Origin: Candidatus Methanogaster sp. | GTDB taxonomy: Archaea > Halobacteriota > Methanosarcinia > Methanosarcinales > Methanogasteraceae | Reading direction: 5' to 3' | NCBI GenBank assembly: GCA_013572355.1 | Contig: QBUV01000094.1 | Coordinates: 1-34,601, forward strand | DNA length: 34,601 nucleotides | Part shown: one piece after another, positions 29,903 to 34,601 of the stretch | Position numbering within the stretch: the first letter of the stretch is position 1 | How the letters are laid out: each line of letters opens with the position of its first letter | Notes under the pieces: model-generated | Database searches by the model: none | Told to the model about the DNA's origin: nothing | What the model saw: only the letters and a program-made list of their open reading frames with translations | Translations under genes and position numbers: made by a program

Positions 29903-31519
29903 ATGTTCGAACCAGCCTGCCGCGAGATTCTTGATCAGATCCTGAATCACGAGATAGTGAGCGAGCGTGAGCTTGATGCCGCCAAGAAGCGGGTCAGCGC
30001 AAAGTACAAACTCCCGAGCCTCCCAAAGAATTCGGAGATCCTTATGCTCTGCTCTGCGGATGAGCGTGCCCGCGCGATCCTTCTGCTGCAACGAAAGTCG
30101 GTCCGCACGATATCAGGCGTTGCCGTGGTTGCTGTGATGACCTCGCCGTACCCGTGCCCGCATGGCGCATGCATCCCGTGCCCGGGCGGTCCCGCATCCG
30201 TATTCCGGACACCGCAGAGTTACATGGGACGGGAGCCGGCCACGATGCGTGCGATCCAGTGCGGATACGACCCGTACAAGCAGGTGGCAGTCCGGCTGCG
30301 GCAGTTGTATAGCATCGGGCATCCGGTCGACAAGGTTGAACTGATCGTGATGGGCGGGACGTTCACAGCCCGCCCGCCGGATTACCAGCAGTGGTTCGTC
30401 GGGAGGTCGCTTTCGGCTATGAATGATTTCGGCGGCGCGGGCGCGGCGGATCAGGATATCGATCTCGATACTGATCTCAATACCGAATCCGTAATCGCCA
30501 CAAACGAGACTGCCGCGGTCAGGAATATCGGGATCACCTTTGAAACCCGCCCTGACTATCTGTCCACAGTGGAGATCGACCGCCTGCTCGAGATGGGCGC
30601 AACGAAGGTGGAAGTAGGGGTTCAGAGCATTTATGACCGCGTGCTCGAGAAGATCAACCGCGGGCATACCGTGCAGGACGCAATCGCTGCCAACAAGCGT
30701 TTGCGTGACAGCGGGCTTAAGGTCGGATTCCATATAATGGTCGGGCTTCCCGGATCTGATGCCGACGACGATCTCAACATGTTTAAGACGCTCTTCAGCG
30801 ATCCTTTATTCTGCCCTGACCACCTGAAGATCTATCCCACGCTCGTCACCGAGGGAACCGTGCTCCACCGGTGGTGGAAGGATGGGAGCTACCACTCGCT
30901 TGATAACGTTTCAGCAACCGAGCTGCTCGCAGATATCAAGAGTGTGCTTCCGAAATGGGTGCGGCTGCAGCGGATCCAGCGGGACATTCCCGCGCAGCAG
31001 ATCGCGGCAGGCGTCACAAAGAGCAACATCCGCCAGCTTGCAGAAGAGCAGCTTCGGTCGATGGGGGGGTCATGCAGGTGCATCAGGTGCCGCGAGGTCG
31101 GACATGCATCGCTGCGCGGAAGAGTGCCTGAGAAGATCGAACTGTTGATCGAGACGTACAGTGCATGTGGCGGAACCGAGCACTTCATATCGTTTGAAGA
31201 CGTGGGAAACGACATCCTGATCGGTTTTCTGCGGCTGCGGTTTCCGGATTCTCCGCACCGGATAGAACTTGCGAACGCTGCTCTCGTGCGTGAACTGGTG
31301 GTGTATGGGCGGATGGTGCCCTTGGATGCAGAATCCCGTCCTCACAGGGACCAGTGGCAGCATAGGGGGTACGGGCGCGAACTGCTAGCTTTCGCAGAGG
31401 ATCTTGCGTCCAAGCACGGATTTTCAAAAATCGCTGTTACAAGTGGTATCGGCGTGCGTGAGTATTACAGGAAGCGCGGTTATGTGCGCGAGGGCGCATA
31501 CATGGTGAAGTACCTTTAA
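29903..31519 (+). CDS. elp3: Elp3 family tRNA uridine-34 modification radical SAM/GNAT enzyme
   Basis: 538 aa; 'SPYPCPHGACIPCPGGP', 'MGREPATMRAIQCGYDPYKQV', 'VELIVMGGTFTARPPDYQQWFV', C-terminal GNAT 'HRGYGRELLAFAEDLASKHGFSKIAVTSGIGVREYYRKRGY'. Confidence 0.96.
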   Translation: MFEPACREILDQILNHEIVSERELDAAKKRVSAKYKLPSLPKNSEILMLCSADERARAILLLQRKSVRTISGVAVVAVMTSPYPCPHGACIPCPGGPASVFRTPQSYMGREPATMRAIQCGYDPYKQVAVRLRQLYSIGHPVDKVELIVMGGTFTARPPDYQQWFVGRSLSAMNDFGGAGAADQDIDLDTDLNTESVIATNETAAVRNIGITFETRPDYLSTVEIDRLLEMGATKVEVGVQSIYDRVLEKINRGHTVQDAIAANKRLRDSGLKVGFHIMVGLPGSDADDDLNMFKTLFSDPLFCPDHLKIYPTLVTEGTVLHRWWKDGSYHSLDNVSATELLADIKSVLPKWVRLQRIQRDIPAQQIAAGVTKSNIRQLAEEQLRSMGGSCRCIRCREVGHASLRGRVPEKIELLIETYSACGGTEHFISFEDVGNDILIGFLRLRFPDSPHRIELANAALVRELVVYGRMVPLDAESRPHRDQWQHRGYGRELLAFAEDLASKHGFSKIAVTSGIGVREYYRKRGYVREGAYMVKYL

Positions 31520-31692
31520 CCGGGCCAGGTTCCGTACTGAAACCCAAGAGCGATCGCGAATATGCCAGCGACAGCAGCGATTATAACCACAGTCTTTGGA
31601 TTGATGCGTATCGCGGTCTCGTCTGCATCGTAATATCTCATCAGACCCGCAGAAGACATGAGTCCGCTGCCACTTGCTTTCTTTTTAGCCAT
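31516..31692 (-). CDS. Preprotein translocase subunit Sec61-beta (SecG)
   Basis: Start MAKKKASGSGLMSSAGLMRYYDADETAIRINPKTVVIIAAVAGIFAIAL: canonical archaeal Sec61-beta, single TM. Confidence 0.93.
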   Translation of the reverse strand: MAKKKASGSGLMSSAGLMRYYDADETAIRINPKTVVIIAAVAGIFAIALGFQYGTWPG

Positions 31693-31786
31693 TGACGTCA
31701 TTATCTCTGGCGATGTCACATAAACGTTTCTATCATTGGATGAAGGGTTACTTTATTATGTATCTGCTACAGAATGTATCTATTAC

Positions 31787-32164
31787 ATGAGTGTAAGGAT
31801 TATGGCTGTGGACGATGAACCGGATACGGTAGACCTGATCACACTGGTGCTTGAAAATGAGGGTTATGAGGTACTGCCAGCTTACAGCGGCAGAGATGCG
31901 CTGGACATGCTCAAAGATACAAAACCCGATCTGATCCTGCTGGATATTATGATGGAAGATATCGATGGCTGGGGGGTGTACGAATCAATCCGTAAAAATG
32001 AGGAAACGAAGGATATTCCAGTGGTGATGCTCACAGCAAAGGCGCAGTCCATCGATAAGATGATCGGTCTGCATGTTGTCGGTGTCGATGAATACATCAC
32101 CAAGCCATTCGGTCACAGAGAGTTGATCGATGGCATAAAGAAGCACCTGCCAGTGACCGGATGA
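31787..32164 (+). CDS. Receiver-only (CheY-like) response regulator
   Basis: About 125 aa from MSVRIMAVDDEPDTVDLI; phosphoacceptor region 'PDLILLDIMMEDIDGWGVYESIR', 'VVMLTAKAQ', 'EYITKPFGHRELIDGIKKHL'. No output domain. Confidence 0.93.
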   Translation: MSVRIMAVDDEPDTVDLITLVLENEGYEVLPAYSGRDALDMLKDTKPDLILLDIMMEDIDGWGVYESIRKNEETKDIPVVMLTAKAQSIDKMIGLHVVGVDEYITKPFGHRELIDGIKKHLPVTG

Positions 32165-32171
32165 GGATGAG

Positions 32172-32606
32172 ATGGACTACACAGCGGGCGCGATTGGCAG
32201 AGTGTTCATCGCACGCATCGATCATGATGAAGATCTGCTCGACGAACTCGTCAAACTCGCAAGATCAGAAGAGATCAAGCAGGCATTCTTCATGCTGATA
32301 GGGGCTGTTAAGAATATGCAGGTCGTGACCGGACCGAAGGAGGACACTGTCCCGCCGGATCCGATGTGGCACTCGATCGCGGGCGCTTGCGAGATACTCG
32401 GTATCGGAAACATCCTCTGGAAGGACGGGGACCCGAGCATCCATCTCCATGCAGCGCTTGGCAAGGGCGATGACGTGACTGTCGGCTGTCTGCGCGATAG
32501 CGTCGATACGTACCTCACCACCGAAGCTATCATATTCGAGATATCAGGCATCGCTGCAGAACGGGTGTACGATGATATGTACGGGATCGCACGGATGGTG
32601 TTATGA
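32172..32606 (+). CDS. PPC/DUF296 domain protein (predicted DNA-binding)
   Basis: 144 aa; 'GRVFIARIDHDEDLLDELVKLARSEEIKQAFFMLIGAVKNMQV', 'SIHLHAALGKGDDVTVGCL..TEAIIFEISG'. Confidence 0.88.
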   Translation: MDYTAGAIGRVFIARIDHDEDLLDELVKLARSEEIKQAFFMLIGAVKNMQVVTGPKEDTVPPDPMWHSIAGACEILGIGNILWKDGDPSIHLHAALGKGDDVTVGCLRDSVDTYLTTEAIIFEISGIAAERVYDDMYGIARMVL

Positions 32607-33769
32607 TGAAATATCTATATCAGGACTCTGTAAAACTCCCCTCGAAGCGTGATTTCATTCACGATCTGGAGGCTCTACTGGACGTGACCGCGGCGGTCGT
32701 TCCGCTTGAAGACGAGATCATCTCGGCTAATAACGAAGTGGAAGAGAGCCACCATGCGAAGGATAGGAAAATTTCCGGGCTGAGAACGTTCGAAAGCGAG
32801 GTGACGAGGCAGATGAACGAGATCGTCAGGGATGGCGGCACCGATGAGATGCAGGTCTGCAAGAATGCGGTCATAGATGTGTGTGCATCCTGCGTGGATC
32901 AACAGAAGGCAAAGATCGATTCCGAGTCTGGTGCATCACTAACTGATCTGGCTGAGAAGATCGACCTCAACGCGGAGCGTATCTGCAAGATAGTCAGTCC
33001 GTTTCTCGAATTCGGAGTATATGGCGCCAGATTTGCATATTCGCTCGAATCGGAGGGGAAAAAGGGACTCCACGGCGAGTTCAAAGCAGATCTGGGCGAG
33101 CTATCATTCGCTTATGAACTGCGGTTTAAGGATGCGGTCACTGTGAAGCAGCTGGTAGGTTCGTTCGCAATTCCGGTACCGAGAAAGGCAGGGATATTCC
33201 ACAGTGAAGAAACTGTGAAGATGCTGGACATGTCGCATCACCGTTTGGCTGATGTCACCTACTCGAATAACCAGGTAACCGCAGAATTTAAAGACAGAAG
33301 GGGAGCAAAAATGGTCCGCATCGAGATGAAAACTGCCACCGATGATTATTCGATAGTGTATGAAGGTGCAGAGCCGGTCAATCTGACAAGAGACGAATTG
33401 GTCTCAAAAGAGATCGATAGCGATGGTGCCACCGGTCTCATGCACGCGGTGATCGGTTATGTGTTGGATACAGAAAAACGCGAGGTTGCGACGCTTGTGA
33501 GACTGACGTTTAATGGCATGAATGTGATCAGAGAGCCGCTCGCCTCTGATGCGCTGAAGGTCATGCTCGCGGAATACGGCAGATTCGCAAACGAATGTAT
33601 CGCACACGGGGCGGCAAAGGACGAATTCGTGATAAAGATCGAATCGGACGACGGCACAAGGACTGAGAAATACATGTCGATCTCGACGGTCAAGGAGCGT
33701 CTGCTCGGGATCGGGGAAGCGGGCGCGGAACTGGCGGATGCATTTGGACTGGGGACGAGCGCGTCATGA
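32603..33769 (+). CDS. Conserved-looking protein of unknown function (388 aa) coupled to the PPC gene
   Basis: Long ORF with ATGA overlap to upstream gene, good archaeal codon/composition match; N-terminal helical region, 'VCKNAVIDVCASCVDQQK' cysteines; no family recognised by eye. Confidence 0.8.
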   Translation: MMKYLYQDSVKLPSKRDFIHDLEALLDVTAAVVPLEDEIISANNEVEESHHAKDRKISGLRTFESEVTRQMNEIVRDGGTDEMQVCKNAVIDVCASCVDQQKAKIDSESGASLTDLAEKIDLNAERICKIVSPFLEFGVYGARFAYSLESEGKKGLHGEFKADLGELSFAYELRFKDAVTVKQLVGSFAIPVPRKAGIFHSEETVKMLDMSHHRLADVTYSNNQVTAEFKDRRGAKMVRIEMKTATDDYSIVYEGAEPVNLTRDELVSKEIDSDGATGLMHAVIGYVLDTEKREVATLVRLTFNGMNVIREPLASDALKVMLAEYGRFANECIAHGAAKDEFVIKIESDDGTRTEKYMSISTVKERLLGIGEAGAELADAFGLGTSAS

Positions 33770-33797
33770 CAATGTGTAGGAACTGCCGTGCCTTATG

Positions 33798-33812
33798 GGC
33801 TCGCCACGAGCC
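33798..33812. repeat. Palindrome GGCTCG-CCA-CGAGCC
   Basis: Perfect 6-bp arms, with flanking TAT/ATA extending the stem after one mismatch; 28 nt downstream of the 388-aa gene. Confidence 0.6.
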
Positions 33813-33817
33813 GTATA

Positions 33818-33850
33818 GTACACTCCCAAGTATAATACTTATGAGTGTAT
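33818..33850. repeat. Nested palindrome TACACTC-(AAGTAT-A-ATACTT)-GAGTGTA
   Basis: Outer 7-bp arms 33819-33825/33843-33849 enclosing inner 6-bp arms 33828-33833/33835-33840. Confidence 0.65.
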
Positions 33851-33941
33851 TCATAGACCGGGGGCGGGAATTGTCACTCCTCAAAGTTATTGGAAGAATG
33901 TTTTTAAATTTATTGAGCGGTAATAGGAGAGTGATCCAAAT

Positions 33942-34601
33942 ATGATTGACCAATTTAATGATACCAATAAGATAAAAATTGCTTTGCTGATAGATGGAGA
34001 TAATGCACAAGCGACTCTAATTGAAAAAATCTTAGCTGAAACGGGTAAACACGGACCAATTACGATAAGACGTATTTATGGCGACTGGACTACACCAAAT
34101 ATGAATAGGTGGAAAGAGACTTTGAATAATCTTGCAATTCAACCAATCCAACAATTCCGTTATACTGTTGGCAAGAACGCCACAGATAGTGCTATGATTA
34201 TTGATGCAATGGATATCCTTCATGACGGTTCAGTAGAAGGTTTTTGTATCGTTTCCAGTGACAGTGATTATACAAGACTTGCAACTAGAATCCGTGAAAG
34301 TGGCATTCTTGTGATGGGGATTGGTAAAAGCACAACACCAAAGGCATTCGTAAAGGCATGCAACATATTCATTTATACTGAAAATCTAACACCTAAAGAT
34401 TCCATCCGGGGAAATGAAACGGAATTAAAGAGTTCATTAACAACCGATGAAAAAGCGAAAATATCGGATCCGATCCCATTACTCAAAGAAGCTTTTGAAA
34501 TGGCTTTAGGAGAGGATAGTTGGGCACATTTGAGTACGATGGGAAATTGTTTACTCCAGTTAGATCCGGGGTTTGATCCAAGGTCTTATGGATACAAACA
34601 A
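33942..34601 (+). CDS. NYN domain (LabA/DUF88-like) predicted nuclease with OST-HTH/LOTUS domain, truncated by the window end
   Basis: Open from ATG 33942 to window end (220 codons, absent from the ORF track): 'KIALLIDGDNAQATLIEKILAE', 'GDWTTPNMNRWKETL', 'KNATDSAMIIDAMDIL', 'FCIVSSDSDYTRLATRIRESGILVMGIG', then 'LLKEAFEMALGEDSWAHLSTMGNCLLQLDPGFDPRSYGYK' (LOTUS). Confidence 0.92.
   Translation, partial: MIDQFNDTNKIKIALLIDGDNAQATLIEKILAETGKHGPITIRRIYGDWTTPNMNRWKETLNNLAIQPIQQFRYTVGKNATDSAMIIDAMDILHDGSVEGFCIVSSDSDYTRLATRIRESGILVMGIGKSTTPKAFVKACNIFIYTENLTPKDSIRGNETELKSSLTTDEKAKISDPIPLLKEAFEMALGEDSWAHLSTMGNCLLQLDPGFDPRSYGYKQ

Follow-up and report, generated by a model that had tools for sequence, protein, structure and literature searches.

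A family-wide receiver-PPC gene pair in Methanogasteraceae, a candidate split two-component output, and an associated gene of an undescribed Methanosarcinales family

A gene for a stand-alone receiver (REC) lies immediately upstream of a gene for a PPC/DUF296 protein in 13/13 loci of Methanogasteraceae (7 in g1, 1 in g2 and 5 in g4, i.e. in three genera), compared to 0/17 loci in other families of Methanosarcinales and 0/22 in the rest of the phylum; given that only one family has the pair, its synteny is sampled over a short timescale only. Here, g1 is the genus of the window, f1 is Methanogasteraceae, g2, g3 and g4 are other genera, and f2-f5 are other families; the window is the whole stretch of 34,601 nucleotides that was analysed. 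Judged by its gene order, the REC-PPC pair is a real unit of the whole family. The reading that we favour, with a probability of about 0.38, is a split output, whereby REC would act on PPC in trans and a third protein, encoded next to the pair in the window, would be recruited as an optional partner.

By sequence, the genome of the window groups with 'Ca. Methanogaster' (ANME-2c), family Methanogasteraceae, a family of methane-consuming archaea. The closest records to the window are Methanosarcinales archaeon MAGs and E20ANME2 (PQXF01), and E20 belongs to ANME-2c, 'Ca. Methanogaster', family Methanogasteraceae (PMC9012536). The three co-directional genes lie where the sequence-only reading had placed them, with REC and PPC separated by 7 nt. 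Related g1 genomes preserve the junctions and all three reading frames, with 84-99% identity at the protein level, which shows that these are genes rather than chance ORFs. The contig ends with these three genes and a separate gene for an NYN-domain protein that also contains an OST-HTH/LOTUS domain (window positions 33942-34601) and runs off the contig end; because an AT-rich stretch lies upstream of it, the NYN gene is probably a transcription unit of its own. Between the third gene and the NYN gene, a 59-aa ORF (33766-33945) is similar to the N-terminal end of an AAA ATPase of 479 aa (ATPase_2 plus DUF234) that is intact at L046:7492-8931; the window and some relatives retain just a short ORF, followed by an NYN gene.

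Table 1 Features of the three-gene block and its upstream flank in the window.
Feature	Position	Strand	Basis or remark
Sec61-beta, flanking, divergent from REC, outside the unit	31516..31719	-	Pfam Sec61_beta 2.6e-13
Promoter-like element, 43 bases, upstream of REC	31736..31778	+	conservation in g1 and g2
REC-only response regulator, 125 aa	31787..32164	+	Pfam, PDB match, orthologues
PPC/DUF296 (PCC) protein, 144 aa	32172..32606	+	Pfam, solved structures, order-wide alignment
Third protein, 387 aa from the conserved start	32606..33769	+	ORF from 32603 = 388 aa

The pair has different flanks in different genera. In g2 and g4, the pair is located downstream of an aldehyde dehydrogenase gene, and in g3 genome G011, REC alone is found downstream of this gene; no PPC was found in g3 although REC is present. 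In g1, by contrast, Elp3 and the divergent Sec61-beta gene precede the pair; three g1 genomes yielded the aldehyde dehydrogenase gene, each time at another place and with neither REC nor PPC adjoining it. Thus, two chromosomal sites harbor the pair, accompanied in g1 and g4 by the third gene, and the simplest reading is that the block moved as one piece. The spacing between the two genes is 1-24 nt across the Methanogasteraceae loci. PPC itself is a single-copy gene found in 42/60 relatives, and since REC of g3 occurs without PPC and most PPC genes of Methanosarcinales do not adjoin REC, neither protein requires the other.

The sequence-only reading had described the three genes as an operon and suggested a three-part module. 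The REC-PPC part of this claim gains from the linkage counts (13/13 vs. 0/39 outside the family), the two sites and a common upstream element, whereas the three-part module is weakened, the third gene being missing from the block in one genus and in one species of another and its family occurring mostly without REC or PPC. The survey of gene neighborhoods across genomes accordingly shows a conserved REC-PPC pair and a more loosely attached third gene.

The upstream element includes a TATA-like sequence, CTTTATTAT, at positions 31751-31759, followed by conserved sequence downstream, and is kept in 7/7 REC loci of g1. The element aligns with its counterpart upstream of REC in g2 (local score of 41, with a shuffled mean of 13.5 and the score reached in 0/2000 shuffles); the gene upstream of the g2 pair is different (aldehyde dehydrogenase), yet the element is common to the two genera. 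In g4, the similarity is weaker. We take this element to be a putative promoter of the block's own, and the block would be co-transcribed. Between the TATA-like sequence and the REC start, two adjacent 16-base stretches, ATGTATCTGCTACAGA and ATGTATCTATTACATG (31758-31789), agree by eye at 12/16 positions, a possible operator.

In REC, Response_reg spans residues 5-117 of 125 aa (Pfam, E 1.7e-26), and the top PDB match (E 4.8e-29) is a CovR/VicR-like receiver. The phosphorylation site is intact and conserved in the alignment, with the acidic pair D9 and D10, the phospho-acceptor D53, T83 and K106. The description of this protein as a receiver without an output domain is thus borne out, and REC is a complete REC-only (CheY-like) protein, predicted to be phosphorylatable. 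Orthologues at 50-99% identity were identified in f1, f2, f5 and one f4 genome. In two sister families, the orthologue adjoins a membrane histidine kinase. In f2 (L191), it is located downstream of a Cache-HAMP-PAS-HisKA-HATPase membrane kinase and before tyrS; in f5 (L194), it is located upstream of, and overlaps, a dCache-HAMP-GAF-HisKA-HATPase membrane kinase. Upstream of this REC-kinase pair, L194 encodes a KaiC/RecA-like ATPase with two domains as well as two small membrane proteins (L194:2240-4348), the latter being present in L195, too. No kinase adjoins REC in the Methanogasteraceae loci. Likewise, in agreement with the sequence-only reading, a search with a histidine kinase gave no match at E<=1e-20 on the contig of the window; kinases were found by the same search on other contigs of this genome. 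The best candidates for a cognate kinase in g1 match mainly the HAMP-PAS-HisKA half, at 37% identity.

The PPC/DUF296 assignment of the second protein is equally secure (PCC/PPC domain PF03479, E 8.1e-24, 84.6 bits, well above the curated cut-off of 25), and the nearest solved structures are 2h6l (E 9e-11) and 2dt4, PH0802 (E 7.9e-9). Trimer formation and the binding of DNA or of a partner would be expected from the family label only. The protein contains no AT-hook. H91-x-H93 is present, and a Cys, C106, stands where AF0104 has its third His (GGH), so that the HxH...H triad of archaeal members like AF0104, which is not defining for the whole PPC/DUF296 family, is incomplete; the His to Cys swap is found in all aligned PPC proteins of Methanosarcinales. 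The positions of H91, H93 and C106 may be metal-binding.

The junction between PPC and the third gene differs in detail from the 4-nt ATGA overlap that had been described. An overlap exists; it is, however, a 1-nt stop/start overlap of the form T(G/A)ATG, as in g1 generally. The most likely start of the third gene is position 32606 rather than 32603, because the family opens with M-K-Y-L-Y-Q-D-S, the L048 orthologue lacks a start codon at the first of these two positions, and the T(G/A)ATG junction is conserved.

The third protein has no Pfam match at E<=1 and no match in NCBIfam or among PDB sequences, and its PHROGs matches are at chance level only. The 388-aa ORF had been considered unassignable from its letters, and these searches, too, place it in no well-characterised family; it appears to represent a family undescribed in the libraries searched. 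All other parts of the block can be assigned to known families. Similarities to apolipoprotein, EsxA, RF2, the DnaK substrate domain and KaiB (E 0.006-10) were rejected as coiled-coil or chance matches, and a viral or plasmid origin was rejected given the lack of relatives in IMG/VR or PLSDB. Bacterial relatives of the third protein may exist; no paper was found on a bacterial 'YGDST' motif.

The confident AlphaFold model of the third protein (53 sequences; pLDDT 90.9, pTM 0.81) consists of a strand (3-6), a long hairpin (residues 18-135) formed by helices 18-75 and 81-135, and a body (143-383) that is beta-rich and then continues into a C-terminal alpha/beta part. When modelled alone, the body adopts the same secondary structure (pLDDT 88.7). 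At E<=0.001, Foldseek returned no match in PDB, for either the whole model or the body alone, and none in BFVD for the whole model. Nine residues are invariant down to 16% identity (E36, P191, E202, L298, E341, K345, R353, E355 and G374); the five charged ones in the body, four of them within 341-355, may form a binding site for a ligand or a partner. The previously noted C(x7)C(x2)C cluster is real and is conserved only inside Methanogasteraceae. Because of this restriction and because the cluster lies within the second helix of the hairpin in the model, a zinc finger was rejected.

The third-protein family was detected in 67/394 genomes of the phylum, all of them Methanosarcinales. In Methanosarcina, most of the large genomes sampled encode two copies. 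In g1, the gene follows PPC in 7/8 genomes (six genomes with the whole gene, plus a seventh in which the contig breaks off after 17 codons); in the eighth, draft genome G004, no REC, PPC or operon copy of the third gene was found. In g4, the gene follows PPC in 4/5 genomes, after a gap of 46-80 nt and with its own ribosome-binding-site-like GGAGGTG. The third gene is missing from the block in G014, and in g2 its place is taken by a DUF1246/DUF1297 gene (PurP-type, purP). Outside Methanogasteraceae, family members adjoin tyrS (f4), a RimI-type acetyltransferase gene (f2) or, in some f5 genomes, CorA, and no REC or PPC was found adjoining them. The tyrS gene is directly preceded by REC in f2 and directly followed by a member of the 388 family in f4 (L191, L192, L193, L210, L057-L088), which is, possibly, the trace of an ancestral cluster, an older REC-tyrS-388 neighborhood. 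The genomes of g1 encode two copies of the family that are each other's closest relatives in the tree (support 1.0), which indicates a duplication within the g1 lineage. The second copy (L038:6378-7538; G000:C183:27377-28528) is 57% identical to the operon copy and is located, in several genomes, downstream of pyruvate phosphate dikinase and DsrE-like genes. In the simplest reading, the operon copy kept its place after the duplication.

Several known systems share parts of this arrangement. The FilI/FilR1/FilR2 system of Methanosaeta harundinacea includes a REC-only regulator, FilR2, in a methanogen (PMC5847659); however, it has a kinase and a wHTH-REC regulator, whereas the block in the window has no linked kinase and its neighbor is PPC. 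REC-only proteins of Methanosarcina acetivorans, e.g. MA4376, are complete stand-alone receivers that have been proposed as hubs (PMC11784639); MA4376 is encoded beside its own kinase, unlike the REC of the window, which is encoded beside PPC. In thaumarchaea, REC-only genes adjoin genes for predicted DNA-binding proteins of the ArsR family (PMC5847659), but those pairs are divergent and HTH-type, whereas the pair described here is co-directional and PPC-type. AF0104 (2h6l) and PH0802 (2dt4) belong to the same Pfam family as the PPC of the window, with the HxH kept; the window protein differs in the Cys at the place of the third conserved His and in the operon with REC. Plant AHL proteins combine an AT-hook with a PPC domain, and the E-I-L of their GRFEIL interaction motif is kept (GACEIL in the window); the PPC of the window lacks the AT-hook, and plant function is not transferable from sequence alone. 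Of the response regulators of archaea, about 40% are stand-alone receivers, which mostly have no conserved neighbor, and neither PPC nor DUF296 appears in the main text of the 2018 census of two-component systems in archaea (PMC5847659). On these two grounds, and as far as these tools show, the conserved REC-PPC unit is taken to be new, absence from one paper being weak proof of novelty. No published description was found of a two-component pathway whose output is a PPC protein.

The adjacency of REC and PPC suggests, without proving it, a switch that acts through a separate partner protein. Under the split-output reading, an unlinked membrane histidine kinase would phosphorylate the REC-only protein, phospho-REC would bind or release the PPC trimer as a separately encoded output, and the trimer would then alter transcription or protein partners; the third protein would be an accessory or client of the pair, not an obligate third component. 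The reading builds on the gene order, its conservation, the intact receiver, the common upstream element, the presence of the block at two sites and the duplication, from which we infer phosphorylation, REC-PPC contact, the binding of DNA or a partner as the output, and the role of the third protein. An output via protein partners is plausible given that the plant PPC domain mediates trimerization and contacts with transcription factors (PMC4209074). The complete picture of a REC-only switch driving a separate PPC trimer, partnered by a new-fold, Methanosarcinales-specific protein, is rather unlikely to hold in all its parts.

The pair might, instead, be co-transcribed without direct contact, in which case REC would serve as a phosphorelay element or general phosphate hub and its promoter would simply also drive PPC and the third gene. 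This is a tentative but serious alternative: the hubs proposed in M. acetivorans (PMC11784639) are a precedent, REC in g3 and PPC in most of the order each occur without the other, and the position of REC beside tyrS in f2 suggests that its company can be incidental. However, linkage at every PPC locus of the family, in three genera and at two sites, is more than expected for incidental company. It is improbable, in our estimate, that PPC is a binder of metal or small molecules rather than a DNA-binding output, with REC and the third protein regulating or sharing a ligand function; the retained H91-x-H93, the conserved Cys in place of the third His and the lack of an AT-hook are compatible with such a role, whereas plant PPC domains act via protein contacts (PMC4209074). 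Less probable still is a true three-part module, as originally proposed, with the third protein as a dedicated effector of REC-PPC. The presence of the third gene in most g1 and g4 genomes and of the trio at both sites argues for this module, but purP replaces the third gene in g2, G014 lacks it, the g4 gene is set apart by its longer gap and own putative ribosome-binding site, and the family is mostly solitary elsewhere, beside tyrS, rimI or corA.

The REC-PPC unit at two chromosomal sites provides a concrete, testable candidate for the output partner of a REC-only protein. Members of the third-protein family also occur in Methanosarcinaceae that are in culture and accessible to genetics. If true, a split REC/PPC output would answer, for one lineage, how archaeal REC-only proteins act.
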